From positions 2,283,501-2,347,500 of the forward strand of contig NZ_CALSBP010000002.1 in NCBI RefSeq assembly GCF_943373825.1: 64,000 bases of DNA, in the 5' to 3' direction. The stretch is from Aquimarina spinulae. Its GTDB lineage: Bacteria; Bacteroidota; Bacteroidia; Flavobacteriales; Flavobacteriaceae. Under the pieces are notes generated by a model. It was not told where the DNA came from. It did not search any database and saw nothing but the letters and a program-made list of their open reading frames with translations. Within the stretch, counting starts at the first letter, position 1, and the number at the start of each line of letters is the position of its first letter. This document shows, piece after piece, positions 2,363 through 64,000 of this stretch. The translations under genes and the position numbers were made by a program.

Positions 2363-2656
2363 GTGAAAATTTATTACGTATATATATTAAAATGCTCGGA
2401 TAAAACTTATTATACAGGAGTGACTTCTAATCTTGAAAAAAGATTATTTCAGCATCATTCAGGATGCTATAAGAATTCTTATACCTCATCAAGAAGACCA
2501 GTACATTTAGTCTTTTACTGTGAGTTTACCAATATTAATATCGCTATTGAAAAGGAAAAACAAATTAAAAAATGGTCTAAATTAAAAAAAGAAGCATTAA
2601 TAAATAATGAGTATGATAGGCTTCCTAATTTAAGCAAGAAGCATTTCAATAAGTGA
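2363..2656 (+). CDS. GIY-YIG nuclease family protein (single domain)
   Basis: A 97-residue protein consisting of one GIY-YIG domain. The signature is YYVYILKCSDKTYYTGVTSN near residues 4-23, followed by the arginine of the LEKRLFQHH helix and a KEKQIKKWS...KEALI segment typical of the small YhbQ/UPF0213-like group. It starts with GTG; no ATG is available upstream. Family members cut or nick DNA, but the targets of these short stand-alone proteins are mostly unknown. The gene sits exactly between two direct copies of a palindromic repeat, 26 bp after the first and 4 bp before the second, which suggests gene and repeats form one unit. Confidence 0.85.
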   Translation: MKIYYVYILKCSDKTYYTGVTSNLEKRLFQHHSGCYKNSYTSSRRPVHLVFYCEFTNINIAIEKEKQIKKWSKLKKEALINNEYDRLPNLSKKHFNK

Positions 2657-2660
2657 TCAG

Positions 2661-2798
2661 TTCTCGATACATTTTGCTTCACTATGTTTCACAAAACACT
2701 CGAACAGACAATAGTACTTCAATTATCACAATGTACACTACTGTCCCATCGAGTAATTTTATCAGTAGTGATAGCGGTTGATAAAATTGTATCGAGAA
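2661..2798. repeat. Palindromic repeat, family B, copy 2
   Basis: A 138-bp direct repeat of 2202-2336. The first 45 bases or so are nearly identical, and the right end again is TGTATCGAGAA. The inner inverted pair is degraded here (CACTCGAA against ATCGAGTA). It begins 4 bp after the GIY-YIG stop codon. Confidence 0.8.
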
Positions 2799-2815
2799 AC
2801 AGTTCGTGCTATACC

Positions 2816-3322
2816 TTATTCGCTTTTTTTAGCGATACCGCATTTTCTTCGGATAGTTCTTTCGGCGAGGGCTGCGACATTTCTGGCCCGATCCTCAGAG
2901 CCTCCGTCTTTAATAACCTCATTATATATGGTTTGGTTTTCTATAAGACCACGTAGGATACAGGTAAATCCTGGGCTGTCTTTACCTCTGTAAGGATTCT
3001 TTTTTTTGGGTTTTGCGATCAACTCCCCGAACAAGCGATCTTTTAATACGTTATCTTTTTGGACTTCTACTACCAACGTATATAGGACATTTTGATCTTC
3101 TGGATCCATATCATTCACCTTATCCATGGCATTAGAATATTCATCATTGGTGAAATTAAAATATGCATAGATGTCAAAGTAGTTGTTTTCTCCTTTTTCA
3201 TCTTCCTGCACTTCTTCTTCACTTTGTATTTCTTCTTCATTCTGGTACCCTTCTTCGCTTTCCTGGCTTACTCCTTTGATCACGGATACTAGTAATATTA
3301 TAAAAATGGGGAGCCTCTTCAT
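2816..3322 (-). CDS. Hypothetical secreted protein with acidic N-terminal segment
   Basis: A 168-residue protein with a signal peptide (MKRLPIFIILLVSVIKGVSQ) followed by a Glu-rich, low-complexity stretch (residues about 21-46). A soluble region with one conserved-looking segment, NPYRGKDSPGFTCILRGL, and two cysteines (FTCILR, RKCGIA) follows. I do not recognise the family. It is transcribed alone, leftwards, towards repeat copy B2. The ATG has no clear Shine-Dalgarno sequence, which is normal for the phylum. Exported location is well supported; function is unknown. Confidence 0.7.
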   Translation of the reverse strand: MKRLPIFIILLVSVIKGVSQESEEGYQNEEEIQSEEEVQEDEKGENNYFDIYAYFNFTNDEYSNAMDKVNDMDPEDQNVLYTLVVEVQKDNVLKDRLFGELIAKPKKKNPYRGKDSPGFTCILRGLIENQTIYNEVIKDGGSEDRARNVAALAERTIRRKCGIAKKSE

Positions 3323-3624
3323 TTGTTCTATAGTTTTAAATTAATTTAGGTATAATAAACGTTTGGCAACGCCCTTTTGTTACCTGCTTTCCTTATTTTT
3401 ATACTTTTATATAAAAACAGTATGCTTTTTCATTATATGCATAAATAAGGATTTTATTTTTGTTTACTAAATACGTGGCATGCTTTTTGGTTTTTATCAA
3501 ATAAATTACCTATTTTGAGGCAATTTTTAAGGTTATTTTAACAATAAAATAAATTTTATCGCGTTCTGATAACCGGTGTAATTAACCTATAAACTATAAT
3601 ACATTATTTTAACACCCAAACATT
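3323..3624. other. Divergent AT-rich intergenic region
   Basis: About 300 bp between two divergently read secreted-protein genes. It must carry both promoters, but apart from a weak TATTTTG at about 3512 I see no convincing -33/-7 pair and no RNA gene. Confidence 0.4.
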
Positions 3625-4023
3625 ATGAAAAAATTATTTCTACTTCTATTTGTGCTAGGCGCAGGATTATCAACTCAAGCTCAAGTAACTTGGGAAGAAA
3701 TGAGCAAAATTTATGATGAGGAATTATATCCTCTCGCAAAAGATGTTTCTGAAATGACAGATAAAGTAATTGCTAATGGCAATGTTGTTTCTATTGTGAA
3801 AGATACTGGTACGACTTCTGTTCAGAAGATACAAGATAAGTCTGTACCTGTTAAGTATTTTGACTACTACCTTCTTACTGCTAATGGCAGAAAAATAGGT
3901 CCATTAGAAGCTATGCAAGCTCACAAAGTGGTACATAAATTCTTAGACGTACTAAAACGAGTTAAAGAAAATGCATCCCAAGATAATACAAAAGAAATTG
4001 AAAACATACTTAATAGTTTATAA
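3625..4023 (+). CDS. Hypothetical secreted protein
   Basis: A 132-residue protein starting MKKLFLLLFVLGAGLSTQAQ, a clear signal peptide with a cleavage site after the AQA-type motif near residue 20. The mature part is small, mixed alpha/beta by eye, with no cysteine and no motif I know. It stands alone and ends in a strong terminator at 4037-4066. Periplasmic or surface location is likely; role unknown. Confidence 0.7.
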   Translation: MKKLFLLLFVLGAGLSTQAQVTWEEMSKIYDEELYPLAKDVSEMTDKVIANGNVVSIVKDTGTTSVQKIQDKSVPVKYFDYYLLTANGRKIGPLEAMQAHKVVHKFLDVLKRVKENASQDNTKEIENILNSL

Positions 4024-4036
4024 GTAAAATAAACTC

Positions 4037-4066
4037 AAAAAGAGCGACACAATGTGTCGCTCTTTT
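4037..4066. terminator. Bidirectional rho-independent terminator
   Basis: AAAAAGAGCGACACA / TGTGTCGCTCTTTTT forms a perfect stem without spacer, with A- and T-runs on both sides. It serves the rightward gene ending at 4023 and the leftward OmpA-family gene ending at 4087. Confidence 0.9.
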
Positions 4067-4086
4067 TGTTTCTAATTACTTCTTAC

Positions 4087-5046
4087 TTAAATATCATTCA
4101 ATAGCTTAGTGATTTCATCCAATTTTGGAGTTAGGATCACTTCGATTCGCCTGTTTTTACTTTTTCCTGTACTAGTATCATTAGAGGCTACGGGAGCAAA
4201 CTCTCCTCTACCTGCTGCAGTGATATTTTGTGGGTCAATTTTCTGGTTTTGTAATAAAATATTTACAATCGCAGTAGCTCTCTTGGTAGACAAATCCCAG
4301 TTGCCCGATAGCTGTCCGTTACCTGTGTACGGTACATTATCGGTATGCCCTTCTATCAAAACAGCGATATCGGTATTATCACCCAATACCCTACCTAATT
4401 GTTTTACTGCTTTTTGCCCTTGCGCTCCTACTGCCCAACTACCAGATTCAAACAGTAGTTTGTTTTCCATAGAAATATAGACTTTACCATTACGCTCTTC
4501 TACAGTAAGGCCTTTGCCTTCAAAATTTCGCAGTGCTTTGGATATTGCACTTTTAAGTGCCTGCATTTTGGCATCTTTGGCTGCAATTAACCCTTCTAAT
4601 TCATCTACTCGTTTAGAACGAGAAGCGAGGTCTCTCTGTAATGCATCCAAACGATTACGTTCTTCGGCCAGCGCTCTTTCTTTTTCTTCCAGTTGCTTTA
4701 GCAGTTCTCTGTTTTTCCTGCTATTGGCTGCAATCGCTGCCGAACTGTTTTTCTCTAATGCGTCATACGAGTCTTTTAGGTTTTCATAATTAGCCTGTGC
4801 CGCATTATATTTTCCTTGCAAATCATCTCTCTCGGCTTTAACCTTTTGATATTCGGCATCTAATTGCTCTAATGCCTTTCTAGTGGCATCACTTGTTTTT
4901 TCTAAAGCTGCTAATTCGTCTTTGGTTTTACGGTTTTCTCGCTTTAGACGAGCATACTTGCTTTCTAATTCTTTGTGTACTTTAGAAGAAACACAAGAAG
5001 TCATAAGAGTACCGACAAGTATAACAGATACGATTCTTTTTATCAT
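4087..5046 (-). CDS. OmpA-family peptidoglycan-associated lipoprotein with coiled coil
   Basis: A 319-residue protein with three parts. First is a lipoprotein signal with lipobox LMTSC (Cys18). Second is a long heptad-rich coiled coil (about 25-185, with many E/K/L/A residues). Third is a C-terminal OmpA/MotB-like domain (about 190-311) with the peptidoglycan-binding signatures GHTDNVPYTGNG, the NWDLSTKRA helix and NRRIEVILTP. The likely role is to tether the outer membrane to peptidoglycan across the periplasm. It is a single gene sharing a terminator with its convergent neighbour. In other flavobacteria such proteins are annotated simply as OmpA family; I assign no symbol. Confidence 0.9.
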   Translation of the reverse strand: MIKRIVSVILVGTLMTSCVSSKVHKELESKYARLKRENRKTKDELAALEKTSDATRKALEQLDAEYQKVKAERDDLQGKYNAAQANYENLKDSYDALEKNSSAAIAANSRKNRELLKQLEEKERALAEERNRLDALQRDLASRSKRVDELEGLIAAKDAKMQALKSAISKALRNFEGKGLTVEERNGKVYISMENKLLFESGSWAVGAQGQKAVKQLGRVLGDNTDIAVLIEGHTDNVPYTGNGQLSGNWDLSTKRATAIVNILLQNQKIDPQNITAAGRGEFAPVASNDTSTGKSKNRRIEVILTPKLDEITKLLNDI

Positions 5047-5115
5047 TTTATGTTGTTTATGGGGTTGTTTTAACTATAAAAATAAAGGAGCTTAAAAGTC
5101 GCCTAGTTATGATTT

Positions 5116-5138
5116 GCTTCGACAAGCTCAGCATGACA
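5116..5138. repeat. Short intergenic repeat, family C
   Basis: The sequence gcttcgacaagctcagcatg is the classic flavobacterial intergenic repeat core. It is related to the arms of the MITE at 5991-6124 (tcttcgacaggctcag) and to 1355-1376. It lies between the OmpA-family and exonuclease genes. Confidence 0.5.
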
Positions 5139-5192
5139 TACGTCATATTAATATTCTCCATTATCTAAAAAGCATTTTTTTTTAATTAAAAT

Positions 5193-5957
5193 CTACACAT
5201 CTAATTCGACTACAATAGGGCAGTGGTCGCTATGTTTAGCTTCTGATAGAATAACGGCTCTTTTTAAATTATCTTGTAAAGGTTGAGATACCATACCATA
5301 ATCCAAACGCCATCCTTTATTATTTGCCCTGGCATTAGCTCTGTAGCTCCACCATGAATATTGATGTGGCTCTGTATTAAAATGTCTAAAAGAATCTATA
5401 AAACCACTATCGATAAAATTACCGATCCACTCACGTTCTACCGGTAAAAATCCTGATACTTTTTTATTGCGTACCGGATCATGAATATCAATTGCTTTAT
5501 GACAGATGTTATAATCTCCTAGTATCACCAGGTTGGGATGTTCTTTTTTAAGTTCATTAATATAGGTCTGAAAATCTGCCATATATTTCAGCTTATGCTC
5601 CAAACGATCCATATTGGTGCCACTGGGTAGGTATAAACTCATTACCGATACTCCATTAAAATCAGCTCTTAGATTACGGCCTTCAAAATCCATATAATCA
5701 ATCCCAGTACCATACTCTACATGATCAGGTTTTGTTTTTGATAGAATAGCAACACCACTATATCCTTTTTTCTGAGCACTGTACCAGTAATTATGTGGAT
5801 ATCCGGCTTCTGAAAACAGATCGAGATCTAACTGTTCTTTATTTGCTTTTATTTCCTGAAGACAGATCACGTCGGGGTCAGTTTGTTGTAACCATTCTAA
5901 AAACCCCTTGTTTATTGCTGCTCTAATTCCGTTTACGTTATAGGAGACGATTTTCAT
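5193..5957 (-). CDS. xth: Exodeoxyribonuclease III (AP endonuclease)
   Basis: A 254-residue endonuclease/exonuclease/phosphatase-fold DNA repair enzyme that incises at abasic sites and removes 3'-blocking groups. The start is taken at the ATG at 5957 (MKIVSYNVNGIRAA), because the family begins exactly there; the frame extends 12 codons further upstream without a good start. Visible motifs are Asn7 of YNVNG, the metal ligand Glu35 (CLQEIK), LVILGDYNICH, the RLDYGMVS loop, and SDHCPIVVEL at the end. Length is normal. The MITE at 5991-6124 lies 33 bp upstream of the start and may carry or disturb the promoter. Confidence 0.95.
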   Translation of the reverse strand: MKIVSYNVNGIRAAINKGFLEWLQQTDPDVICLQEIKANKEQLDLDLFSEAGYPHNYWYSAQKKGYSGVAILSKTKPDHVEYGTGIDYMDFEGRNLRADFNGVSVMSLYLPSGTNMDRLEHKLKYMADFQTYINELKKEHPNLVILGDYNICHKAIDIHDPVRNKKVSGFLPVEREWIGNFIDSGFIDSFRHFNTEPHQYSWWSYRANARANNKGWRLDYGMVSQPLQDNLKRAVILSEAKHSDHCPIVVELDV

Positions 5958-5990
5958 ACTCAAAATACTATTTGGTTTACATAATTCAAA

Positions 5991-6124
5991 CAATGTCGTT
6001 TAGTTAAGGATAAGATTTAAAATTTCTTGTCACACTGAGCCTGTCGAAGTGCTTTCAAATCTGTTTTTTCAAATGTCTTCGACAGGCTCAGACTGACAAC
6101 TAAAAGCTTAACTAAACGACATTG
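5991..6124. mobile_element. MITE-like element with perfect 18-bp terminal inverted repeats
   Basis: CAATGTCGTTTAGTTAAG (5991-6008) is the exact reverse complement of CTTAACTAAACGACATTG (6107-6124). The 98 bp between them hold a second, imperfect palindrome (gagcctgtcgaagtgc... and tcttcgacaggctc). No reading frame lies inside. A second, interrupted copy is present at 1241-1755. I saw no clear target-site duplication; immediately outside are aaa (left) and ata (right). Confidence 0.85.
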
Positions 6125-6267
6125 ATAATTCAAATCTACCAATTATTAAAGAAAATAAAGCGTCATATCGATACATTTTAATCATCAATTATGAATTTAA
6201 ATTGGCATATAAATCCCATCATATTCTAATAAATTTTTATGATCTTTATAGTAAACAACCACAAATC

Positions 6268-6636
6268 ATGAAAAACATGCTTAAAACCGCCTGCTTACTT
6301 CTACTATTTAGTGCATATAATTGTGTTCCCGCCAAAGGTGTAAATTCTGAAAGTGCTACAACCACAAAAAATGATATTCAAATCTCGACATCAAAAGAAA
6401 TGATAGAAAAAGGATTTAGTAAAGGTACTATAGTAAGTAGTAAATCTGAGGGGTGTCCTTATATTCTAAATGTTGAAGAATATAAAGATAACCTGGATCC
6501 TATTAATCTTGGTGATTTTTATAAAGCCGAGGTTCCCAAACAGGTTTGGGTAAAATTTTCTAGCCTTAGAATGGCAAGTAGATGTAATAATGCTCGTCCG
6601 GTTTCTATTACAGAAATCAATACGCGTAAAGAATAA
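6268..6636 (+). CDS. Hypothetical lipoprotein
   Basis: The start is set at the ATG at 6268 (MKNMLKTACLLLLFSAYNC), which gives a normal lipoprotein signal with Cys19 as the lipidated residue. The frame is open 22 codons further upstream, but that stretch has no signal character. The 122-residue product has a Ser/Thr-rich linker, then a compact domain containing SKSEGCPYILNVEEY and a basic segment ending RPVSITEINTR. I do not recognise the family. It stands alone between two repeat elements. Confidence 0.65.
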   Translation: MKNMLKTACLLLLFSAYNCVPAKGVNSESATTTKNDIQISTSKEMIEKGFSKGTIVSSKSEGCPYILNVEEYKDNLDPINLGDFYKAEVPKQVWVKFSSLRMASRCNNARPVSITEINTRKE

Positions 6637-6685
6637 GCATATTATTTTAACCGGTTGTGCATTTTAGACTTTTTAATTCGAAATT

Positions 6686-6825
6686 CGTCAATTCGAGTGC
6701 TTCGATACTTCGGCGTAGCTCAGTACAGGCCGAAGAAGTGTATCGAGAATAGAGTTTTGAATCAAAAAAGCTATTCTCGATATATTTTGTCTCCATTCCA
6801 TTACTACAAAACACTCGAATTGACG
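6686..6825. repeat. Palindromic element related to family B, three nested hairpins
   Basis: The outer inverted pair is CGTCAATTCGAGTG (6686-6699) / CACTCGAATTGACG (6812-6825), a perfect 14 bp. Inside is an imperfect hairpin around cttcggc...gccgaag (about 6700-6748) and a perfect 12-bp pair TATCGAGAATAG (6741-6752) / CTATTCTCGATA (6771-6782). The right half (ttctcgatatattttg...acaaaacactcga) matches the left half of family B at 2202 and 2661. It lies at the 3' ends of two convergent genes. Confidence 0.75.
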
Positions 6826-6862
6826 CTTTTTTGTACTATTAGTTTCTCAAATGCACAATGTA

Positions 6863-9850
6863 TTATTGTACAACAAACCTCGTAGCGTCTGCTTTTCTTT
6901 TGTTACCAAATCGTGCAAAATAGACTCCTGATCTCGCATAGGACATATCCAGATCGTATACAAATCTACCATTAGCATCTTTTCTCACTATATTAGAAAC
7001 GATAACTTGTCCTAGAATGTTAAAAATATAAAGTCTCGTTTCGGTTTCTGGGCCAGAGTCTGATTTGGTAATCAAAAATTGGTTGTCAGGTTCTGTAATT
7101 ACAATCAATCCTGTATTTAACTCTTCATTTTCTCCTATCTCTACGGTATAATCATGAGTTGTTCCAAAATCCATCGAACCACAGGGATTATTAAGAGGAG
7201 CTCCGCTATTGGTATTAACATCTCCTGCACGAATTCTAAGCAAATGACTTCCTAACAAAGCATCAGCGGCAATTGAAACCGTAAAGTCCTGATCGGTATC
7301 AGCAGCTTCGATAATTTGATTATCAACCAAAAGTTCTGATTCTTCAAAAACGATATTGTCATTAAAATCAATCCACATAGATACTCGCTCTGATCCATTA
7401 TTATCTGCAAATCCAGTTTGTACGGTTAATGTATAGTTTCCTATAGATCGATTTAAATTGATAGTAAAGTCATTTGTAAAATCTTCATATCCTGTATCAC
7501 AGGTAATTTGAGTATTCGTAACATTTGCCAATTCGAAAGACTTAATTCCATCTCCAAATCGCGCACAATTTGCTGTAGGTTTACAAAACGCTCTTTCTAT
7601 TGTTCTGGTAATAGTATCATTAGTTGTATTTTGATCTGCTGCTAAAGCCGTTCCTAATAGAAATTCGAAAGTCCCCGTTCCTGTAATATCTACCAGAGTA
7701 GTAAATGTATAACTTGTTTCTGTTTGTGGTTGCAGGGTACCTGTAAAAACTTCTTCTACTCTGGTTCCATTATTTAAAGTATAAAAAACCGGAATATTAG
7801 TTTGCGCAGCAGAACCAAAATTATATAGTGTAATAACAACGGCTTCTGAAGAAGCTGTAATACCACTATCGAGAGCAGGAGATGTTAATTCTGCCACTCC
7901 TACATCAACAGAAAATAAATTATTGAGCGTTACCTCACTACAATCATTTTCGGGATTGATATCTCCCGCTGCATTAGTTTCTGCTGTTATAGTATACACT
8001 CTTTCTGTACTAAGATCTGCATTGGTAGCAAATGAAAAAGAAGCTGTTCTTAATGGTGCTATAGGACCTGCTAACAGCTCACTAACCGGGGGTCCTCCAT
8101 TAATAGAGTATGTAACCTGTATATTACTTTGAGCTGTAGTCCCAAAATTCTTAACGGTTACGGTAATGTTTTCAGAATTGGTAAAAGTGGCATCATTTCC
8201 TGGCGTGTCTATACTTACTACTCCTACATCGGTTGTAACTGCACCAGCCACTTTAAAAACTCCTACAACATTTCTTGAGTTGTCTCCTGTATTTTCAAAG
8301 TATTCTGCAATGTGCCAAAACGTTTGATCATCGACAGGGTCTACAGTAAGCTGTGCATAATCTCCGTATCGTTGTGGATCTCCTTCGCGTTGTATATCGG
8401 TTCCGATCTTGATATCTTGCTCTGCTACGGTCATCGTTCCTAATGGATCACCTGCAAGTCTACCGGTATATCGAATTGAAGCAAAACTATCTGCACTCGC
8501 CCCGGTACTTGTTGTACCCATTGTTGTGTACCCCATACCAATATTACCATAAATATCCATAGCCATACTCCCACACCAGGCACTTTTACCATCGGGAGAA
8601 GTATAGGTTCCTTCTTGAAATACGGTCCAGGGTTGACCATCTCCACTTTGTCGTAATTCGTACCAACGTATTCCTGCTACATCATCTGCATCTGCATCTA
8701 TATCTACGACATGATTAAGTACTACAGAGTTATAATTACAAAATCGCCTGTAATTACTGGCAAACATAACTGCCCCTTGCAATGCATCAATATTTCGATC
8801 GCTACCAGGTTGTGGTAAGTTACCAAAAGACCCGCCATCAAAAGTAGAGTCAAATGGTGTTACCGTAAGTTCTTCTGCTTCTGTAATTGTAGATTGACTG
8901 GGAGAAACCCAGTCTACATTAACTTTCCATAATTTTAAAATATCCTGATCAACACCTTCCCACTCATCATCCTGAAAATAAATAATTCTAGCATCACCAT
9001 CAGGAGGTAATGTTTTTCCTAAAGCATTAAATGATGCCGGACTGTAAAACCCTCCTATTCTAGCTCCAGGAAGTGGAAATCCCACCATTTTTACATTTTC
9101 TTGTTCTGCTCCTTGTAGCATTTTTTCTCTTTCGATTACAAATACGATCTCGCTGGTTTGTACCGAATTTTGATCTTTATTAGCTGTTACATAGTATCCA
9201 TCAGACCAAATTGAAAATTTTGTGTAATCAGGAAACCCTTCTGTATTAAATCGATAGGTATACCATCCGTCATTTACAGGATCTGGTCCTTGGCCTACAG
9301 CTACCAAAAATCCATCTGGAGTATTAGAAAACTGAGTGATTACAAATCGATCTGCAAAACTATCATAAAATACAATTGGATCTCCAAGAGTTTCTCCTGG
9401 GAATATATTGGCTAATGATGACGAAGCCACTAACTCATTACCACTTCTATCGTGTATTGCAAAAGCAAAGTTTTTGGCACTTACATAATGATTAGGACCA
9501 ACAGCTCCTGTAGGATCTGAAGGAGCTCTATTGCTAGAATTTGTCTCGAATGTAAGAGAAGGAGCTTTACCTGCTCTCATCATCTGATTGCTCTTTTGTT
9601 TTGCAAGTAAAGGATCCATTCCTTTTGGAAAACCTTTTCCCGGAACAATCTTATTTGCATCTGTTCTTCTAGGATTAATCTTACCTTCTCTTGGTTCACC
9701 CGGCAATAGTTTTTTCCCTGCCAATGGCCCTATTGCCCTCATATAAGTAGCAGTAGTTACCATACTGGCATTCATGGTTTCTTTCTTTTGTGAAAATCCA
9801 ATGGTAACAAAAAACAGAAAAGAAACTACTACAATTTTCTTTAATAGCAT
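6863..9850 (-). CDS. Large secreted protein with CARDB-like, GEVED and T9SS type A sorting domains
   Basis: 995 residues from the ATG at 9850 (MLLKKIVVVSFLFFVTIGFSQ); a TTG three codons upstream is less likely. A signal peptide is followed by a propeller-like region of about 450 residues (APSDPTGAVGPNHYV..., repeated 'fGNIGMGYTTMG' type segments). Two CARDB/Ig-like modules come next, each opening DVGV (near 545 and 650), then a GEVED-type domain (near 770-890: SMWIDFNDN, AGSDFGTTHDYTVEIG-like). The C-terminal T9SS type A sorting domain carries the ETRLYIFNILGQVI motif and ends in a basic stretch. It is probably exported by the type IX system and attached to the cell surface. Enzymatic activity, if any, is not evident. 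Confidence 0.85.
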   Translation of the reverse strand: MLLKKIVVVSFLFFVTIGFSQKKETMNASMVTTATYMRAIGPLAGKKLLPGEPREGKINPRRTDANKIVPGKGFPKGMDPLLAKQKSNQMMRAGKAPSLTFETNSSNRAPSDPTGAVGPNHYVSAKNFAFAIHDRSGNELVASSSLANIFPGETLGDPIVFYDSFADRFVITQFSNTPDGFLVAVGQGPDPVNDGWYTYRFNTEGFPDYTKFSIWSDGYYVTANKDQNSVQTSEIVFVIEREKMLQGAEQENVKMVGFPLPGARIGGFYSPASFNALGKTLPPDGDARIIYFQDDEWEGVDQDILKLWKVNVDWVSPSQSTITEAEELTVTPFDSTFDGGSFGNLPQPGSDRNIDALQGAVMFASNYRRFCNYNSVVLNHVVDIDADADDVAGIRWYELRQSGDGQPWTVFQEGTYTSPDGKSAWCGSMAMDIYGNIGMGYTTMGTTSTGASADSFASIRYTGRLAGDPLGTMTVAEQDIKIGTDIQREGDPQRYGDYAQLTVDPVDDQTFWHIAEYFENTGDNSRNVVGVFKVAGAVTTDVGVVSIDTPGNDATFTNSENITVTVKNFGTTAQSNIQVTYSINGGPPVSELLAGPIAPLRTASFSFATNADLSTERVYTITAETNAAGDINPENDCSEVTLNNLFSVDVGVAELTSPALDSGITASSEAVVITLYNFGSAAQTNIPVFYTLNNGTRVEEVFTGTLQPQTETSYTFTTLVDITGTGTFEFLLGTALAADQNTTNDTITRTIERAFCKPTANCARFGDGIKSFELANVTNTQITCDTGYEDFTNDFTINLNRSIGNYTLTVQTGFADNNGSERVSMWIDFNDNIVFEESELLVDNQIIEAADTDQDFTVSIAADALLGSHLLRIRAGDVNTNSGAPLNNPCGSMDFGTTHDYTVEIGENEELNTGLIVITEPDNQFLITKSDSGPETETRLYIFNILGQVIVSNIVRKDANGRFVYDLDMSYARSGVYFARFGNKRKADATRFVVQ

Positions 9851-57644: not shown

Positions 57645-57848
57645 ATGAAAAAATCACTTTTAAACTTAGGAAGATTTTTACACAGAGACGAACAAAAACA
57701 CATTAAAGGAGGGCATATGGACATGTCCTCAGATAATTGTAAAGATGAATGTGAAACTTCTGCAGACTGTCCAAGTGGTCAAGCTTGCCATACATTTGAT
57801 CAATCTAAATCTTGTCCTTCACATCCAAAAGTTAAAATTTGTATGTAA
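57645..57848 (+). CDS. GG-leader, six-cysteine secreted peptide (natural-product-precursor-like)
   Basis: A 67-residue peptide. The leader MKKSLLNLGRFLHRDEQKHI followed by KGG (residues 1-23) closely matches the Bacteroidetes double-glycine leader (LGxxLxxxEQKxIxGG) cleaved by peptidase-containing ABC transporters. The core of 44 residues (from His24) has cysteines at 32, 36, 42, 48, 57 and 66, probably forming three disulfides. No processing transporter, maturation enzyme or immunity gene is next to it; a DMT permease is convergent downstream. Secreted bacteriocin- or signal-like function is inferred from the leader alone. Confidence 0.8.
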   Translation: MKKSLLNLGRFLHRDEQKHIKGGHMDMSSDNCKDECETSADCPSGQACHTFDQSKSCPSHPKVKICM

Positions 57849-57856
57849 GCATTTTG

Positions 57857-57886
57857 AAAGATTGCCTGAGTTTCAGGCAATCTTTT
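57857..57886. terminator. Bidirectional rho-independent terminator
   Basis: AAAGATTGCCTGA / TCAGGCAATCTTT stem with a 3-base loop and flanking A- and T-runs. It serves the rightward peptide gene and overlaps the end of the leftward DMT gene. Confidence 0.88.
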
Positions 57887-58778
57887 AGCTTTTCTTTTTA
57901 GTAAACCCAAATAATAATAGACCAATAATTACAACTCCTCCTCCTATAAGCTGCTCGGCATATAATGTTTCCCCAAAAGGAAACGCAAGTAACACCGCAA
58001 AAAACGGAATAAGATTCATAAACAATGTCGAGGTTGTTGCTCCCAATTTAACGACACAGAAATAAAATGCCGTATATGCAATTCCGGTTCCTAATATCCC
58101 CATAAATAAGATACTACCCCAAAAAGATATATCGGCAGGAACATCGGTTGTTATAAATTCTGGTAGTGAGAAAACCGCAAACAAAACAAAGGCCATGAGC
58201 GAGGTAATCGTGGTCATCACAACAGCATCTACATGAGGAAGGTATTTACTTACAATGACCTGAGAAAGTGAGAATACAATAGCCATACCCATGATATAAA
58301 CATCCCCTATTTCGAACTGCAATTCTGCCAGTTTACTAAAATCTCCTTTTACCAAAATAATCGCCACTCCAAAAAAACTAATCGCAATAGCAATCCATTG
58401 TATTAATTTCACTTTTTTTCTTTGCAATAAAAAAGTAAAAACAGCAGTAATTGCAGGGCTTGTTGCAATAATAAGAGATCCATTTACAGCACTGGTAGTT
58501 TTTAATCCCAGATTAAAAAAGTATATGGTTAAAAAGATTCCGAAAAAGGAAGTAAGAAACATATACCACCATTCTTTTGCAGAAAATCTGAGTTTGAATA
58601 ACGAGTTCCCAAATCTTATATACACAAGAAGAAACAACGAGACAACTCCAAAGAAAAATCGCAAAGCAGCCACACTTACGGGAGAATAAAACTCTAAAGC
58701 TATTTTTACCACATGAAAATTAGCTGCCCAAAAAAGCATGGTTAGTATCAAAAACAGAAACGTAATTATTTTAGTCAT
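57885..58778 (-). CDS. EamA-type DMT-superfamily transporter
   Basis: A 297-residue membrane protein with ten transmembrane segments in two EamA halves (about 1-140 and 150-290). Typical features are an N-terminal FWAANFHVVKIALEFYSP segment, the RFFFGV helix and the LLFGFTKKKS end. It likely exports an amino acid or other small metabolite; the substrate is not determined. It is convergent with the GG-leader peptide gene and read towards it, so it is not in the same operon. Confidence 0.9.
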   Translation of the reverse strand: MTKIITFLFLILTMLFWAANFHVVKIALEFYSPVSVAALRFFFGVVSLFLLVYIRFGNSLFKLRFSAKEWWYMFLTSFFGIFLTIYFFNLGLKTTSAVNGSLIIATSPAITAVFTFLLQRKKVKLIQWIAIAISFFGVAIILVKGDFSKLAELQFEIGDVYIMGMAIVFSLSQVIVSKYLPHVDAVVMTTITSLMAFVLFAVFSLPEFITTDVPADISFWGSILFMGILGTGIAYTAFYFCVVKLGATTSTLFMNLIPFFAVLLAFPFGETLYAEQLIGGGVVIIGLLLFGFTKKKS

Positions 58779-58844: not shown

Positions 58845-59165
58845 TTAAAAAACAAAGGTCTCAAAATGCTGTACTTCTTCTTCGAACTCCAGAAGAAAAT
58901 CCTTATCTCTATCGTAATATTTTGCTTTGGTATAATCCTCTCCAGCAAAAGTTTTAATACTCTCATAATCTTTCCATTTGGTCACTGTCCATACATGGCA
59001 GATATCATCTTCAAATCTTCTTAAAATTTCTACACCTAGTATTCCATCAACAGATTTATAATCTGCAACACCACTTTCTATTAAGTATCGCAAATATTCC
59101 TCGGCATCTTCGGCATTAATTTTCCCATGCCATTTTCTTGTAATTACACTTGATTTATAATTCAT
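58845..59165 (-). CDS. Antibiotic biosynthesis monooxygenase-fold (ABM) protein
   Basis: A 106-residue ABM-domain (dimeric alpha/beta barrel) protein. The start is placed at 59165 (MNYKSSVITRKWHGKI), since the open frame upstream has no signal or domain character. Signatures: ITRKWHGKINAEDAEEYLRYL, GVEILRRFEDDICHVWTVTKW, and YDRDKDFLLEFEEEVQHFE. Members catalyse cofactor-light oxygenation or act as heme-degrading or isomerising proteins. It is divergent from the CGNR regulator, sharing a short promoter region with an inverted repeat. Confidence 0.82.
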   Translation of the reverse strand: MNYKSSVITRKWHGKINAEDAEEYLRYLIESGVADYKSVDGILGVEILRRFEDDICHVWTVTKWKDYESIKTFAGEDYTKAKYYDRDKDFLLEFEEEVQHFETFVF

Positions 59166-59186
59166 ACTACTAAAATTAATTACACT

Positions 59187-59257
59187 GGTGCAAATATAAG
59201 ATAATATTTTTACTACCAAAACTTGTTTTACTGGTTATAATTATTTTACTTTGCACC
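59187..59257. promoter_or_regulatory. Divergent promoter region with inverted operator-like repeat
   Basis: GGTGCAAA (59187-59194) is an exact reverse complement of TTTGCACC (59250-59257), and the latter ends right at the CGNR ATG. On the minus strand TTTG (59220-59217), an 18-bp spacer and TATATTTG (59198-59191) form a good promoter for the ABM gene. The plus-strand TACTTTGC is a -7-like element directly in front of the CGNR start. The two arms overlap both promoters, suiting an autoregulatory operator. Confidence 0.65.
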
Positions 59258-59848
59258 ATGAATAATGTAGAACATATACAAAACAGCCTTTTAGACGGAG
59301 GAAATCTATCTCTCAATTTTATCAATACGATTAAAGACAGGCTGGTTGCAGATCCTATAGACTACCTTACCGGGAAAGAGGAATGGATTGCCTGGTTAAA
59401 ACGCGTTGATATTTTAGAAAATGAAACATCAAACTTTGATGAAGCTAGTTTTAATCTAAAGGAAGTTATAAGGAAAAGAGAATTTTTGCATCGTGTATTT
59501 CAAGGACTTGTTTTTCAAAGAGAAATCAAAGAAAAAGATCTTAAATGTTTTGATACACTCTTACAAAAAATCAGAAGATCCACTAAAATTTTTGTGGTAG
59601 ACAATAAGCCTCAAGAACACTTGGAGATAGACCCAAATGATCTAAATAGCTATATCTTAAAAATTGGAAAAGCGGCTCATGAACTATTGATGTCTGAAGA
59701 AATAGATCGGGTAAAAGAATGTGGTAATTGCGGTTGGATTTACTTCGATTCGAGTAAAAACAAATGTAGAAAATGGTGCAATATGGATACTTGTGGTAAC
59801 GAAGTAAAAGCCAGAAAATATTATGAAAGCAAAAAAAACAAAGTATAA
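59258..59848 (+). CDS. CGNR zinc-finger (ABATE-domain) regulator
   Basis: A 196-residue protein with an N-terminal ABATE-type domain (about 1-140: NSLLDGGNLSLNFINTI, WLKRVDIL) and a C-terminal CGNR zinc finger: CGNCGWIYFDSSKNKC, then RKWCNMDTCGNEVKAR, with four or more cysteines. The family is thought to act as stress-linked transcription regulators. It is immediately followed by RidA (12 bp) and divergent from the ABM gene, so it probably controls this cluster. The ATG follows a -7 element by 4 bp, so the mRNA may be leaderless. Confidence 0.88.
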   Translation: MNNVEHIQNSLLDGGNLSLNFINTIKDRLVADPIDYLTGKEEWIAWLKRVDILENETSNFDEASFNLKEVIRKREFLHRVFQGLVFQREIKEKDLKCFDTLLQKIRRSTKIFVVDNKPQEHLEIDPNDLNSYILKIGKAAHELLMSEEIDRVKECGNCGWIYFDSSKNKCRKWCNMDTCGNEVKARKYYESKKNKV

Positions 59849-59860
59849 AACTATATAAAA

Positions 59861-60250
59861 ATGAAAAATAGAAAAAACATTTCGTCTGGTAGCCCCTGGG
59901 AAGATATTGTAGGATACTCCAGAGCTGTAAAAGCAGGGAATATCATCGAGGTTTCTGGTACTACCGCTACCGGTAAAGATGGTGATATTATTGGTATAGA
60001 CGACCCTTATCTTCAGACCAAAACAATTATAGAAACTGCTAAAAATGTTTTGGAAGATATGGGATATAGTTTAGACAATGTGATACGAACAAGAATTTAT
60101 ACTACCGATATATCTCAATGGGAAGCTATAGGAAAAGCACATGGAGAATATTTTGGCACTATAAAGCCCACTACCGCAATGGTAGAAATAGCCAAACTAA
60201 TTAATCCTGATATGTTGGTAGAAATAGAATTTACAGCCATAGCAGATTAA
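59861..60250 (+). CDS. RidA/YjgF-YER057c-UK114 family protein lacking the canonical arginine
   Basis: A 129-residue Rid-family protein. Signatures: SPWEDIVGYSRAVKAGNIIEVSG, NVIRTRIYTTDISQWEAIG, and the end KPTTAMVEIAKL...MLVEIEF. In classical RidA the KPAR segment carries an arginine essential for enamine/imine deamination; here that position is Thr (KPTT), so the usual deaminase activity is doubtful. Located 12 bp after the regulator, in one operon. A second Rid protein at 63251 keeps the arginine. Confidence 0.9.
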   Translation: MKNRKNISSGSPWEDIVGYSRAVKAGNIIEVSGTTATGKDGDIIGIDDPYLQTKTIIETAKNVLEDMGYSLDNVIRTRIYTTDISQWEAIGKAHGEYFGTIKPTTAMVEIAKLINPDMLVEIEFTAIAD

Positions 60251-60301
60251 TTATACAAAAATGAATTAAAAATTAGTACTAACCCTTAAATACTCATAAT
60301 T

Positions 60302-60445
60302 ATGAATTGTAATGTAGAATGTTTACCTAATGATTGTTCAGTAGTAAGAGAAAAGAGCACTACCAAAATTTTTATTCAATCCATTACCGATTGGTTAAAA
60401 ACTTTTAGAATCCCCGGAGCCGAAGATGCTTCAAGATTTAAATAG
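60302..60445 (+). CDS. Candidate small peptide gene (47 residues)
   Basis: An ATG frame of 47 codons in the 357-bp gap between RidA and the hydratase. The peptide begins MNCNVECLPNDCSVV (three cysteines in the first 12 residues) and ends ...TDWLKTFRIPGAEDASRFK. It has no signal peptide and no clear ribosome-binding site. It might be a genuine small gene of the cluster, a peptide precursor, or a degraded start of a lost gene. No known family comes to mind. Confidence 0.35.
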   Translation: MNCNVECLPNDCSVVREKSTTKIFIQSITDWLKTFRIPGAEDASRFK

Positions 60446-60511
60446 TGTCAATTTCAACAATCTATATGATATGAAATAGACCACATAAATCATCTTAATT
60501 TATAAAAAAAG

Positions 60512-60617
60512 AGATCAAATAGATGGTCAAAAATTAGAGATAACGAATCTGCCGAGTCATTATATTTTAGAGATCCTGATAAAAAATTTAATTGAAATAA
60601 GTATTTATGAAAGATAA
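60512..60617 (+). pseudogene. Remnant of a VOC-family (glyoxalase-like) gene end, frameshifted
   Basis: One frame from 60512 reads ...WSKIRDNESAESLYFRDPDK; if one A is removed from the run of six As at 60581-60586 it continues NLIEISIYER and stops at 60615-60617. SLYFRDPDxNLIEI is the typical end of vicinal-oxygen-chelate proteins. No earlier part of such a gene can be read. The remnant overlaps the hydratase start (60607) by 11 bp. Confidence 0.5.
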
Positions 60618-61389
60618 AATCTACAACTCAAAAGCTCTATTATACAGGTCAGAAATGATGGCAGCATACAGGAAAGAGGTCTCACTACCATATCTGTCAG
60701 ATTTTGATGTAGTATTAACTTCGGATGAAGCTTATCAGATTCAGAAACATTTGGTACAGAAAGTATCAGAAAATGATACTATAGTTGCTTACGAAGCTGG
60801 TATGACTTCTGAAGGTTCTCAGAAAAAATTTGGGGCAACTCAACCACTTGCAGCAGCACGATTTACTTCTGGACTTTATTTCGACACTACAGAAATTAAA
60901 CTCTCTGAATTTCAAAATCCAATTCTCGAAACAGAAATCGGTTACCGAATGAAATCAAAAATCACAAAAAAAGTAACTTTAGGTACAGTAAAAGGATTGG
61001 TGAAAGAAATTATACCTATGATCGAAATCCCGGATATTAAACATCCAGATATGTCCAGGTTAACTCAAAAAGATATGATTGCTACTAATGGTGCAGGCGC
61101 TGTAATTATTCAAGGAAAACCAGTGAATCCAGATGTAAATATTAATGAAGAAATCATAACCCTAGCATTGGGTAAAGAAGAAATTAGCAGAGGAAAAGGA
61201 AGTGACGCTATGGGAGACCAATGGACATCACTAGTATGGTTAATCAATAAGACCTTGGATCAAGGATACCCAATTACGCCAGAACACATCCTTATGACTG
61301 GTACAGTTGGGCAAATAGTACCACTAACCAAAGGTTCTTATACTGCCCTATATGGATCCCTGGGAACGATTGAATTTACAGTGGTCTAG
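60607..61389 (+). CDS. 2-keto-4-pentenoate hydratase (MhpD) family protein
   Basis: A 260-residue fumarylacetoacetate-hydrolase-fold protein of the MhpD/DmpE type. Visible: YEAGMTSEGSQKKFG near 60, metal ligands in ILETEIGYRM (Glu-x-Glu), IEIPDIKHPD, ATNGAGAVIIQG and GQIVPLTKGSYTALYGSLGTIEF. The family adds water to 2-oxo-4-enoates, or in a sister branch decarboxylates 4-oxalocrotonate. With Rid proteins nearby it would suit an aminomuconate-like pathway, but upstream ring-cleavage genes are not present. Confidence 0.88.
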   Translation: MKDKIYNSKALLYRSEMMAAYRKEVSLPYLSDFDVVLTSDEAYQIQKHLVQKVSENDTIVAYEAGMTSEGSQKKFGATQPLAAARFTSGLYFDTTEIKLSEFQNPILETEIGYRMKSKITKKVTLGTVKGLVKEIIPMIEIPDIKHPDMSRLTQKDMIATNGAGAVIIQGKPVNPDVNINEEIITLALGKEEISRGKGSDAMGDQWTSLVWLINKTLDQGYPITPEHILMTGTVGQIVPLTKGSYTALYGSLGTIEFTVV

Positions 61390-61477
61390 ACAGGTGCATA
61401 GAGTGGGTAGGTAAAGAATCTCCATACTACTCAAAAAGACATTGATCGTTTTATAGCGATTTAACAAAAACAGGAGC

Positions 61478-62380
61478 ATGAAAAAATTTACCGTATATCA
61501 AATAGATGCTTTCACCAAAGAAAAATTTAAAGGAAACCCTGCAGGAGTTATAATTAACGCAACAGGATTAGATGATACTCAAATGCTGGCTATCGCACGA
61601 GAATTAAATAACTCTGAAACAGCATTTATCTTCCCCTCTGATGGCAAAGACAATGATGGTGTTATACGATATTTTACACCTACAGTAGAGGTTCCTATTT
61701 GTGGTCACGCAACTATTGCTGCTATGTATGCCAAAGCCATATCCGAAAATCTGAATTCTTGTGTATTAAGGATGAAAACCAAAGTAGGGGTTTTACCATT
61801 TACTATCTATAAAAAAGATGATGATTATAAAATAGAAATGACACAAGGCTCTATCAGTTTTGAGCCACCTTTTAGTATAGAAATTCAACATCAAATTATA
61901 GCTGCACTTGGGCTAAAAAGTGCTGATATAGATGAAAAATGTCCTATTCAAATTGCTTCTACAGGACATTCTAAAGTAATGATAGGCATCAAAAATAATA
62001 AAACACTTAATGCTCTTAAACCCAATAATAGCAAGCTTAGTGAACTCAGCAAAATAATTGGATGTAATGGGTATTATGTTTTTACGTTTGATTCTACTGA
62101 TAAGGATTGTTTGATCGATGGGCGCATGTTTGCTCCTGCTATAGGTATAAATGAAGACCCCGTTACTGGGAATGCTAATGGTCCTTTAGGTGCTTATTTA
62201 ATTCATCATGAATTGGTTACATATAACGGTAAAGAATTTACGTTTAAAATCAAACAAGGTGAAAAAATGAAGCGCACAGGCTATATGAATGTTCATGTGA
62301 CCTGTGCACATAATCGACCAAAACAAGTACAAATTACAGGCAATGCAATAGTTGTATTTAAAACCACAATAACTATATGA
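61478..62380 (+). CDS. PhzF-family isomerase
   Basis: A 300-residue PhzF/diaminopimelate-epimerase-fold protein. Typical features: FKGNPAGVIIN at the start, the catalytic Glu in NNSETAFIF, the CGHATIAAMYAK motif, and NEDPVTGNANGPLGAYL near the end. PhzF isomerases move double bonds (phenazine dihydro-hydroxyanthranilate isomerase) or epimerise; substrate cannot be told. The stop overlaps the start of a second PhzF gene by 4 bp (ATGA), so the two are coupled and probably work as partners or on successive steps. Confidence 0.92.
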   Translation: MKKFTVYQIDAFTKEKFKGNPAGVIINATGLDDTQMLAIARELNNSETAFIFPSDGKDNDGVIRYFTPTVEVPICGHATIAAMYAKAISENLNSCVLRMKTKVGVLPFTIYKKDDDYKIEMTQGSISFEPPFSIEIQHQIIAALGLKSADIDEKCPIQIASTGHSKVMIGIKNNKTLNALKPNNSKLSELSKIIGCNGYYVFTFDSTDKDCLIDGRMFAPAIGINEDPVTGNANGPLGAYLIHHELVTYNGKEFTFKIKQGEKMKRTGYMNVHVTCAHNRPKQVQITGNAIVVFKTTITI

Positions 62381-63216
62381 AAACAACAAAAATTCAAAAA
62401 ATAGCAGCTTTCTCTTATAACAATACAGGAGGAAATCCTGCAGGTGTTGTAATAACAGATAAAATGCCGAAAGAAGAAGAAATGTTTAGCATTGCTAAAG
62501 AAGTGGGATTCTCTGAAACTGCTTTTTTACACCCTAAAGATAACGGATGGCGTATTCGGTATTTTTCTCCTGAAATAGAAGTCGATTTTTGTGGTCATGC
62601 TACCATTGCCACAGGAGCAGGCCTGGGACAAAGCCATGGAGAAGGAACATACAAGCTGTTTTTAAACAACGGAGAAATTAGTGTTGCCGTTAAAAAAACC
62701 ACGGGAAATGATTTTAAAGTAACATTACAATCACCAGAAACTTGGTCAAAACCTGCGCCGCAAACTGTTATAGATGATGTTCTTGATTTATTTAACCTTC
62801 CTGTTTCGGCACTTCATGCAGATTTTCCGATTCGATATGCTTTTGCAGGAGCCAAACACCTTATTCTTGTAGTAAATGATCGAAAAACGATAGCCGATAT
62901 GAAGTATAAATTCGAAAAAACCAAAACTCTTATGCTTAAAGAAAGCCTGGTCACTATAAGCTTATTGTGGTTAGATGACAATAATGTATTTCATTCCAGA
63001 AACGCATTTGCCTCAGGAGGAGTATATGAAGATCCTGCTACAGGAGCTGCTGCTGCGGCTTTAGCTGGTTATTTACGTGATATAAATTGGAAAGGAAATA
63101 ATAAATTCGAAATCATCCAGGGAGAAGATATGGGATCTCCATCACGACTAATAGTAGAATACACTCCTACAATAGGATCTAGCATAAAAATATCAGGAAG
63201 TACACGGGATATTTAG
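62377..63216 (+). CDS. PhzF-family isomerase, second copy
   Basis: A 279-residue PhzF-fold protein. Signatures: NNTGGNPAGVVITDKMP, GFSETAFLHPKDN (catalytic Glu), DFCGHATIATGAGLG and YEDPATGAAAAALAGYL. Only distantly similar to its upstream partner, so not a recent duplication. It overlaps that gene by four bases. Followed after 34 bp by a second RidA-like gene. Confidence 0.92.
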   Translation: MKTTKIQKIAAFSYNNTGGNPAGVVITDKMPKEEEMFSIAKEVGFSETAFLHPKDNGWRIRYFSPEIEVDFCGHATIATGAGLGQSHGEGTYKLFLNNGEISVAVKKTTGNDFKVTLQSPETWSKPAPQTVIDDVLDLFNLPVSALHADFPIRYAFAGAKHLILVVNDRKTIADMKYKFEKTKTLMLKESLVTISLLWLDDNNVFHSRNAFASGGVYEDPATGAAAAALAGYLRDINWKGNNKFEIIQGEDMGSPSRLIVEYTPTIGSSIKISGSTRDI

Positions 63217-63250
63217 ACAAAAATCTGAACAACCAACTCAAATAAAAAAC

Positions 63251-63625
63251 ATGAAGACAAATGAAGCATTAAACATACCCAAAAGTAATGGACACTATGC
63301 TATGTGGGTAGAACATAAAGGCTCCCTTTATTTAAGCGGGCAATTACCAATACATCCAATCACCAAAGAAGTACCTGCAGGTATCGAAGCACAAACAAAA
63401 TTATTATTACAGAATATAGAACTCACGCTAAAAAAAGCCGGAAGCAGTAAAAATCATATCATTAGAAATGAGATTTTTATTAATGATGTTGCACATTGGT
63501 CAACAATAGATAAAGTATATGCTGATTTTTTTGGAGATCATAAACCCGCCAGAGCAGTAGTTGGTAATGCCGAATTACATCTCGGTTGCCTCATTGAAAT
63601 CATAACAACAGCAGCAATAATCTAA
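63251..63625 (+). CDS. RidA family protein, with conserved arginine
   Basis: A 124-residue Rid protein: LYLSGQLPIHPITKEVPAG, HIIRNEIFINDVAHWSTID and HKPARAVVGNAELHLGCLIEI. Unlike the first Rid gene (59861) it keeps the PAR arginine needed for enamine/imine hydrolysis. It lies 34 bp after the second PhzF and 17 bp before the M29 aminopeptidase gene, in one operon. Confidence 0.9.
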   Translation: MKTNEALNIPKSNGHYAMWVEHKGSLYLSGQLPIHPITKEVPAGIEAQTKLLLQNIELTLKKAGSSKNHIIRNEIFINDVAHWSTIDKVYADFFGDHKPARAVVGNAELHLGCLIEIITTAAII

Positions 63626-63642
63626 TAATCAATACTAAAAAA

Positions 63643-64000
63643 ATGAATTCATCTATATTAAAAAAATACGCAGATCTATTGGTACATTACTCCCTTGATA
63701 TACAACCGGGAGATAAATTATTTATTCAAACTACAACACTTGCAGAACCATTAGTGCGAGAAGTTTTTAGAACTGCTATCAAAGCCGGAGCACATGTAGA
63801 ATACCAATTGGAGTTTAGTGAAGCTCATAAAATTAAAATTGATAATTCTGAAGAAAAGCAATTAAACCAACCTCCTGTATTATACGCACATGCGATGGAG
63901 CATTTTGATGCTTATCTTAAAATTATGGCTCCTCATAATCTCATCGAAAATCAAAATATAGATACTCAAAAACAACGAAAGCACAAAGAAACTTTAAAAC
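63643..64000 (+). CDS. M29 family aminopeptidase, truncated by window end
   Basis: The frame runs from the ATG at 63643 to the end of the window (about 119 codons). The visible start (LKKYADLLVHYSLDIQPGDK, LVREVFRTAIKAGAHV, YAHAMEHFDAYLKIMAPHN) is the N-terminal domain of the M29 (thermophilic aminopeptidase/AmpS) group; the metal-binding C-terminal part lies outside. Role: removal of N-terminal residues, or an amidase-like step within the cluster. Confidence 0.82.
   Translation, partial: MNSSILKKYADLLVHYSLDIQPGDKLFIQTTTLAEPLVREVFRTAIKAGAHVEYQLEFSEAHKIKIDNSEEKQLNQPPVLYAHAMEHFDAYLKIMAPHNLIENQNIDTQKQRKHKETLK

Follow-up and report, generated by a model that had tools for sequence, protein, structure and literature searches.

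We asked whether a run of adjoining genes in Aquimarina spinulae, among them two genes of the Rid family and two of the PhzF family, forms a single functional unit and, if so, what kind of metabolite it serves. The genes lie at the right end of the 64,000-nucleotide stretch of DNA analysed here (the window; contig NZ_CALSBP010000002.1, positions 2,283,501 to 2,347,500), which belongs to a genome of 6.24 Mb, and the four closest named matches in a search with the hydratase-like protein of the set were all Aquimarina. An initial annotation had read the genes as an operon for the catabolism of an amino- or nitro-aromatic product, or for the biosynthesis of and self-protection around such a compound. 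We found that the unit is co-inherited, modular and clade-restricted. As to its role, gene content, conservation and residue states, with every reaction inferred from protein families, lead us to propose tentatively that this clade-specific, divergent, CGNR-regulated unit may handle a reactive enamine or imine metabolite and export it or its product (through Rid, PhzF and an exporter, with or without a pyridoxal phosphate (PLP)-dependent lyase), and that it is not an aromatic pathway.

Co-inheritance and selection in Aquimarina

Read from left to right in the open reading frame (ORF) lists, the unit comprises genes for an EamA exporter and a small ABM-like protein on the − strand and, on the + strand, for a CGNR regulator, a first Rid protein (RidA1), a 47-amino-acid (aa) peptide, a hydratase-like protein, two PhzF proteins (PhzFa and PhzFb), a second Rid protein (RidA2) and an M29 metallopeptidase. 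The ORFs, strands and order of the genes initially listed were all confirmed, and the CGNR/ABATE, two Ribonuc_L-PSP (Rid), two PhzF and M29 matches each exceeded the Pfam cut-off; that set was real but left out the EamA exporter, which lies 66 bases behind the ABM-like gene on the same strand. The cluster does run on past the window as had been proposed, but only as far as the end of the 366-aa M29 gene (63643..64000 on the + strand, the first 119 aa in the window), which was reached at L003:7244, 743 bases beyond, when the genome was extended rightwards. Because genes on the opposite strand follow there (a 112-aa gene, then what we take to be riboflavin synthase, with a presumed pdxA further on), the unit closes at M29.

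Across 66 genomes of the genus, strong matches (85% identity or more) were sought genome by genome for the hydratase-like protein, M29, PhzFb, the peptide and CGNR, and within the resulting loci for RidA1, RidA2, PhzFa, ABM and EamA. The hydratase-like protein had strong matches in five genomes and so did M29 (with an additional 90% fragment carrying two stops in G017, where it alone remains of the operon), while PhzFb, the peptide and CGNR were each found in six, the same six in every case, at identities of 85% or more for the peptide and 89% or more for CGNR and PhzFb; G064, one of the matching genomes, shares its species with the window. The complete order occurs in five of the 66 genomes (the window and L005-L008) and is kept in all five, and RidA1, ABM and EamA adjoin the core in all six loci read. 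The sixth genome, G024 (L072), has only EamA, ABM, CGNR, RidA1, the peptide and PhzFb, and its CGNR protein is 100% identical. In two loci, L005 and L006, an extra 367-aa class-V PLP gene stands between the hydratase-like gene and PhzFa. The proposed gene order is thereby co-inherited in close relatives, whole in 5/66 genomes and as a core in 1/66.

The site itself is variable. In a rooted tree of three flanking genes, the seven genomes form one clade with a support of 100, in which G024 is basal; the other six are grouped with a support of only 39, so that the core may be either ancestral or a remnant of the full set. An empty site is seen in G019, in which a gene that we take to encode an epimerase adjoins the 112-aa gene and no ORF of at least 80 aa separates the two, and other genes stand beside the 112-aa gene in G059, G006, G016 and G017. 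About 6 kb from the M29 fragment of G017 (L073:997-4259) are PAPS-reductase-like and AAA/SMC-like genes, presumably resembling Dnd-type genes, and the region seems to exchange genes; in G059, the 112-aa gene is adjoined by a stretch with genes like those for ClpV, baseplate and sheath (about 2542-9568 on the reverse complement of L163), probably a contractile (type VI-like) system.

Pooled pairwise ratios of nonsynonymous to synonymous substitution rates (dN/dS) were 0.025 for CGNR, 0.043 for M29, 0.047 for RidA1, 0.091 for RidA2, 0.100 for PhzFb, 0.101 for ABM (six genomes), 0.135 for the PLP protein (two genomes), 0.188 for PhzFa, 0.196 for the hydratase-like protein and 0.206 for the peptide. 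Pairs of unequal length were left out (PhzFb in L008), EamA was not included, and the hydratase-like stretch of L008 begins seven codons early and includes upstream bases. The peptide (60302..60445, +) was counted a second time with five sequences: pN/pS was 0.24 when the peptide's own frame was used, against 1.33 and 0.71 for the two remaining forward frames and 1.12, 1.29 and 0.31 for the reverse frames, the last of which was taken as the usual third-position mirror. Variable columns fall on codon positions 1, 2 and 3 in numbers of 6, 8 and 16. Of its 47 positions 33 are invariant in seven rows (six distinct), including three Cys and the motif PGAEDASR near the C-terminus, and both ends are conserved. 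No Pfam, NCBIfam or PADLOC match was obtained, and among 5.8 billion proteins, searched by a method limited to those with shared short exact words, two relatives came up. The peptide is an orphan member of the core on which purifying selection acts, and it is the most novel part of the unit.

Residue states and relatives of the encoded proteins

The two Rid proteins differ at the residue on which imine hydrolysis depends. RidA1 (59861..60250, +; Pfam 4.2e-27) reads KPTTAMV at the Arg position in five of six genomes and KPATAMV in the sixth, while RidA2 (63251..63625, +; Pfam 3.9e-27) reads KPARAVV, aligning an arginine with Arg105 of TdcF; the distinction initially drawn between an arginine-less and an arginine-bearing RidA holds. 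Replacement of this Arg by Ala almost abolished imine hydrolysis in RidA proteins, about 10% of which have serine at the position (Niehaus et al., PMC4433059). Elsewhere in the genome, a second gene related to RidA2 (L004:9547-9816) encodes an 89-aa Rid protein, 45% identical to RidA2 and without the C-terminal arginine-bearing part. It lies between a presumed MarR-like gene and what we take to be a threonine-dehydratase-like gene (L004:9924-10865), threonine dehydratase being the classical partner of RidA.

PhzFa (61478..62380, +) and PhzFb (62377..63216, +; Pfam 2.2e-54) overlap by four bases, in keeping with their description as coupled. Both exceed the cut-off of the PhzF family model TIGR00654 (307.1 and 150.7 bits against 76.2), and PhzFa also passes that of the YddE-type equivalog PRK10281 (445 bits against 386). 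The catalytic residues of PhzF are Glu, His and Asp, and the motifs SETAF, CGHATIA and EDPxTG were read from the sequence in both proteins. The family of PhzFb is very large (at least 7998 relatives at E<=1e-20 among the 7999 candidates listed), but in sampled Bacteroidota it is rare, seen in two of 395 genomes of the phylum (the present one and G536, at 44%) and one of 397 of the family (the present one). Neither the family nor the phylum sampling gave a new locus of the set. Plasmids yielded 17 records of PhzFb relatives, of which 16 (all but H6) were examined together with 3 to 5 kb of flanking sequence at either end. Two lacked features (H10, H17), leaving 14 annotated stretches. In six of these (H7, H11, H13, H14, H15, H16), PhzF has a DMT- or LysE-type exporter next to it, although four of the six represent one Rhodococcus lineage and the exporter of H13 is on the opposite strand. 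Of the plasmid relatives of RidA1 and CGNR, those examined (H36, one of 12 records, and H48, one of 101, respectively) had no annotated PhzF nearby.

The hydratase-like protein (60607..61389, +) has no Pfam match at E<=0.001, and its NCBIfam MhpD/HpcG matches are far below cut-off (best 71.1 bits against 350 for the equivalog). By PDB sequence it is related to MhpD and HpcG, and another of its matches is 8ih6, a decarboxylase-hydratase complex from Pseudomonas AP-3. In Foldseek, an AlphaFold model built from 11 sequences (mean predicted local distance difference test score, pLDDT, 90.6; a single-sequence model with pLDDT 28.7 was discarded) resembled 2eb6 (1.3e-24) and 1sv6 (template modelling score 0.89), consistent with a predicted fold of the HpcG, MhpD and 4-oxalocrotonate decarboxylase type. 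Three carboxylates that we take to be metal ligands (E108, E110, E140) are invariant in 11 rows. At the position before GLT, all five operon copies have Glu63 in place of the Lys found in all six compared relatives and, in PDB alignments, in the MhpD and HpcG structures 1sv6 and 2eb4; this lysine is presumably catalytic in the family. Thus, of the MhpD-type hydratase originally named, the fold, the metal carboxylates and a remote relation stand, but the family lysine is replaced. Across the order, 16 further genomes of 395 gave matches, none of them above 30% identity.

Relatives of the hydratase-like protein at 42-44% identity occur in G054 (L015/L074) and L009, in unrelated surroundings with contig ends nearby. 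These lipoprotein-like proteins (L015:1417-2244, L009:1076-1909) keep the lysine and have an N-terminal signal by eye, and by their sequences they are probably a secreted branch of the MhpD/HpcG fold. The other HpaH-like gene of the genome (G000:C2:745291-745980, L023) keeps the lysine as well; it adjoins what we take to be an HpcH-like aldolase gene and an FAH-family gene, and its locus is probably the real lower aromatic pathway of the organism.

The M29 protein (Pfam Peptidase_M29 1.5e-87; 294.5 bits against a cut-off of 27) is related in sequence to PepS, AmpS and aminopeptidase T, with E values of 1.3e-19 to 1.8e-13. Six residues (E227, E292, H319, Y326, H338, D340), presumably the metal and catalytic residues of the peptidase, are invariant in seven of seven rows. 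It is aminopeptidase-like, as first named. To the ring-opening dioxygenase NicX its sequence is related remotely at best (7cn3, E 1.2), and an assignment to that type was rejected, the peptidase-type Glu and Tyr being invariant. At E<=1e-40, M29 has relatives in 62 of the 395 genomes of the phylum, and four M29 plasmid stretches (of 18 records) carried no annotated member of the set. The nearest solved sequence to the PLP protein of L005 and L006 is the cystine C-S lyase 1elq (3.7e-17), and NCBIfam desulfurase models matched it below their cut-offs.

The divergent arms and adjoining sequences

The 196-aa regulator (59258..59848, +) combines a CGNR zinc finger (Pfam zf-CGNR 5.4e-13) with an ABATE domain (3.3e-7). 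On the opposite arm, the 106-aa ABM-like protein (58845..59165, −) reaches 15.7 bits (E 0.017) in Pfam ABM against a cut-off of 23.1, and its plasmid relatives are annotated "antibiotic biosynthesis monooxygenase" or hypothetical; with a sub-threshold match only, the ABM-fold monooxygenase of the initial annotation could not be upheld, and by sequence a monooxygenase activity appears without curated support. The exporter (57885..58778, −; Pfam EamA 1.9e-39) has a match below cut-off to the NCBIfam amine/amino-acid transporter model 2A78. It adjoins ABM in L005-L008 and L072 also, and is possibly the second gene of the divergent arm.

An inverted-repeat operator had been placed between the arms. 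The longest inverted repeat in the gap between ABM and CGNR is 9 bp (arms 59186-59194 and 59250-59258); when the 95-base region was shuffled with its dinucleotides preserved, 107 of 2000 shuffles contained one equally long, and GGTGCAAA occurs four times in the window against 1.73 expected, with as many in 7 of 100 shuffles. The second arm is TTTGCACT in L007 and L008, with one outer base changed, and both arms are changed in L072 (TAGTGCAAA and TTTGCATGA). The flavobacterial −33 element is TTG. The −7 box is TAnnTTTG at −12 to −5 (PMC9723704). A predicted promoter of the ABM arm (59191..59219, −) has a TATATTTG box at 59198-59191 that matches the −7 consensus, with a TTG 18 bases upstream; a candidate promoter of the CGNR arm (59223..59253, +) has TTACTTTG at 59246-59253, fitting five of the six specified bases of TAnnTTTG, with a TTG 20 bases upstream. 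Since perfect TTG-N16-21-TAnnTTTG has ten matches in the whole window (both strands), a single promoter match is no proof. Each repeat arm has the four bases TTTG in common with one predicted −7 box, the remaining CACCA being unaccounted for by the promoter. The operator was not confirmed, in that the repeat is weak, is eroded in relatives and coincides in part with both predicted −7 boxes, although a regulator site may lie over these boxes. If the start codon is right, the predicted transcription start (59246-59258 region) falls about at the ATG and the CGNR mRNA would be nearly leaderless, a class put at 5.5% of mRNAs (PMC9723704).

No RNA element reached the Rfam gathering threshold in the gaps (L003:1-9100), and none of five proteins tested matched a defence system in PADLOC. 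In the interval that separates the peptide from the hydratase-like gene, IDHINHL...YFRDPD looked VOC-like to us. A VOC/glyoxalase remnant was considered there and set aside: the stretch has an in-frame stop in the window and insertions and deletions among relatives in the DNA alignment, and was treated as non-coding (in tblastn, 87% in L005, 92% in L006 and 49% in L008, and not found in L007). To the left of the exporter, a 67-aa peptide with a Cys-bearing tail (57645-57848, +) carries the leader LLNLGRFLHRDEQKHIKGG, presumably of double-glycine type; it has an identical copy in L005 and a 20-aa leader match in L008, and none was found in the L006 and L007 stretches.

Role of the unit and its likeness to known systems

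If the unit acts on enamines or imines as we tentatively propose, the CGNR protein would control both arms from the facing promoters. Enamines would be formed by a PLP enzyme, a cystine-lyase/cysteine-desulfurase-like protein that two of six genomes encode within the unit and the remaining four perhaps at another place, or, alternatively, from amino acids that the M29 peptidase releases; RidA2 would hydrolyse them, one or both PhzF proteins would shift a proton or a double bond so that a less reactive tautomer results, and the EamA exporter would remove the product. For RidA1, the peptide and the hydratase-like protein that has lost its lysine, a binding role or altered chemistry is more probable than standard catalysis. 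The proposal is supported by a core that has been kept together and by dN/dS values of 0.21 or less for all genes computed, as well as by the RidA2 arginine, which RidA proteins need for imine hydrolysis (PMC4433059), by the PLP gene of L005 and L006, which matches the reported clustering of desulfurases with RidA (PMC4433059), and by the exporter links, namely the six of 14 plasmid neighbours, a plasmid set described below and the PhzF-DMT-CsdA regulons (PMC5320631).

Other observations weigh against it. RidA1 is without the arginine, the PLP gene is missing in four of the six genomes, and the regulator is of the CGNR/ABATE and not the MocR class. Moreover, Rid adjoins PhzFb relatives in only one of the 14 annotated plasmid stretches (H7) and M29 in none, and no Rid, PhzF, CGNR or hydratase-like neighbour (E<=1e-3) was found in nine Bacteroidota M29 loci, the only set member there being a distant (23%) class-V PLP gene in L123. 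To our knowledge, most PhzF relatives outside phenazine synthesis have no assigned role. An EamA relative (77%) also stands at the same site in G022 (L165) without ABM, CGNR, Rid or PhzF, so that EamA may be older than the unit; this lowers the standing of enamine disposal and raises that of its strongest rival, accretion at a variable chromosomal site. Under accretion, only the core (ABM, CGNR, RidA1, the peptide, PhzFb and perhaps EamA) would cooperate, with the hydratase-like gene, PhzFa, RidA2 and M29 loosely added. The basal G024 holding the core alone (with the caveat of the support of 39), the empty, EamA-only and otherwise occupied sites, and the unrelated neighbours of M29 in nine loci all fit this account; against it, the order and the PhzFa/PhzFb overlap are kept in five of five full loci, and the added genes are under purifying selection (dN/dS 0.04 to 0.20). 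On balance we regard accretion as rather unlikely.

A lower pathway for an amino- or nitro-aromatic compound, with Rid as a 2-aminomuconate-type deaminase, PhzF as isomerase and the hydratase acting on a 2-oxo-enoate, would be attractive in that AmnE, a 2-aminomuconate deaminase, is a Rid protein (PMC6742747), RidA1 matches the deaminase structure 6izh at 6.6e-9 and the hydratase-like protein matches 8ih6. However, as initially noted, no ring-cleaving dioxygenase is among the genes of the unit, and neither Pfam nor NCBIfam identified a semialdehyde dehydrogenase, 4-oxalocrotonate decarboxylase or aldolase there; none was recognised by eye in the flanking ORFs read either (window positions 1-42000 lay outside that reading). 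Glu63 replaces the lysine, the lysine-keeping HpaH-like protein is located elsewhere beside the presumed aldolase, and G024 has the core without a hydratase-like gene. We consider this pathway improbable. That M29 completes a heterocycle pathway as a ring-opening dioxygenase of the NicX type in disguise is exceedingly unlikely: the remote 7cn3 match is in its favour, and the PepS/AmpS matches (about 1e-19) and the invariant Glu and Tyr, in presumed peptidase roles, speak against it. The iron ligands of NicX are His265, Ser302, His318 and Asp320 (PMC7910607). Of the initial interpretation, the co-inherited order and plausible enamine and double-bond chemistry survive, but not amino- or nitro-aromatic catabolism.

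PhzF, Rid, ABM-like and exporter genes also occur in natural-product clusters, and a role in biosynthesis or self-protection might give the short, Cys-bearing, core-linked and selected peptide a place as precursor or scaffold trimmed by M29. Yet the Pfam hits of the unit include no nonribosomal peptide synthetase, polyketide synthase, radical SAM, YcaO or LanB, G024 keeps the peptide without M29, and the peptide is conserved at both ends and not just one; such a role also seems improbable. A more novel reading, very unlikely in our estimation, is that the peptide is a Cys-bearing carrier or precursor, with Rid, PhzF and the lysine-less hydratase-fold protein acting on a bound intermediate before export by EamA: this would be a small peptide-borne enamine pathway of a kind previously undescribed. 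Arginine-less Rid proteins mostly lack an assigned role (PMC4433059), and two more members, the peptide of the core and the hydratase-fold protein with its Lys-to-Glu change, are unusual in their own right. The natural variants within Aquimarina (full, core-only, with or without the PLP gene, fragment) make a joint function of PhzF and Rid testable; were the unit only metabolite housekeeping or accretion, its value would be modest.

No description of this set was found in the Creative Commons-licensed PMC literature (combinations of PhzF, RidA, CGNR, M29, YddE and Aquimarina), so the initial statement that no described pathway has this order stands within that literature. PhzFa is like E. coli YddE (the PRK10281 cut-off is passed; PDB 1qy9, 2.2e-83), but since the PDB labels YddE an uncharacterized isomerase, the likeness gives PhzFa no substrate. 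With the modified meta-cleavage pathway for 2-aminophenol (amn), the unit shares a Rid-family protein and a protein of the MhpD/4-oxalocrotonate-decarboxylase fold in one unit; it differs in having no ring-opening or downstream enzymes and in the lost lysine. Shared with the metabolite-damage clusters in which cysteine desulfurase genes accompany RidA are an Arg-bearing Rid and a cysteine-desulfurase/lyase-like gene (here in two of six genomes); the second, arginine-less Rid, PhzF, M29 and the peptide set the unit apart, and phenazine and aminopeptidase go unmentioned in the available main text of that study (PMC4433059). In MocR/PdxQ-type regulons, PhzF-like isomerases are linked to DMT or LysE exporters, with CsdA-type desulfurases in one regulon type and RidA in five MocR regulogs; the regulator there is MocR and not CGNR, and M29, the hydratase-like gene and the peptide are absent from the available text of the paper (PMC5320631). 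The exporter, PhzF, Rid and, in the two genomes that have it, the PLP protein are the best-connected members of the unit. Together, the Rid-PLP links (PMC4433059) and the PhzF-exporter-CsdA links (PMC5320631) favour enamine or imine disposal over aromatic catabolism. A like unit is present on plasmid pLA3 of Novosphingobium pentaromativorans (L079), where EamA (a DMT exporter), a PhzFb-family gene, RidA and RidA are adjacent; it differs in an upstream LysR, in having no CGNR, M29, second PhzF or hydratase-like gene annotated in 10.8 kb, and in a PhzF that is 44% identical. The families of the Aquimarina unit are thus known, and it is their arrangement and the 47-aa peptide that appear to be new.

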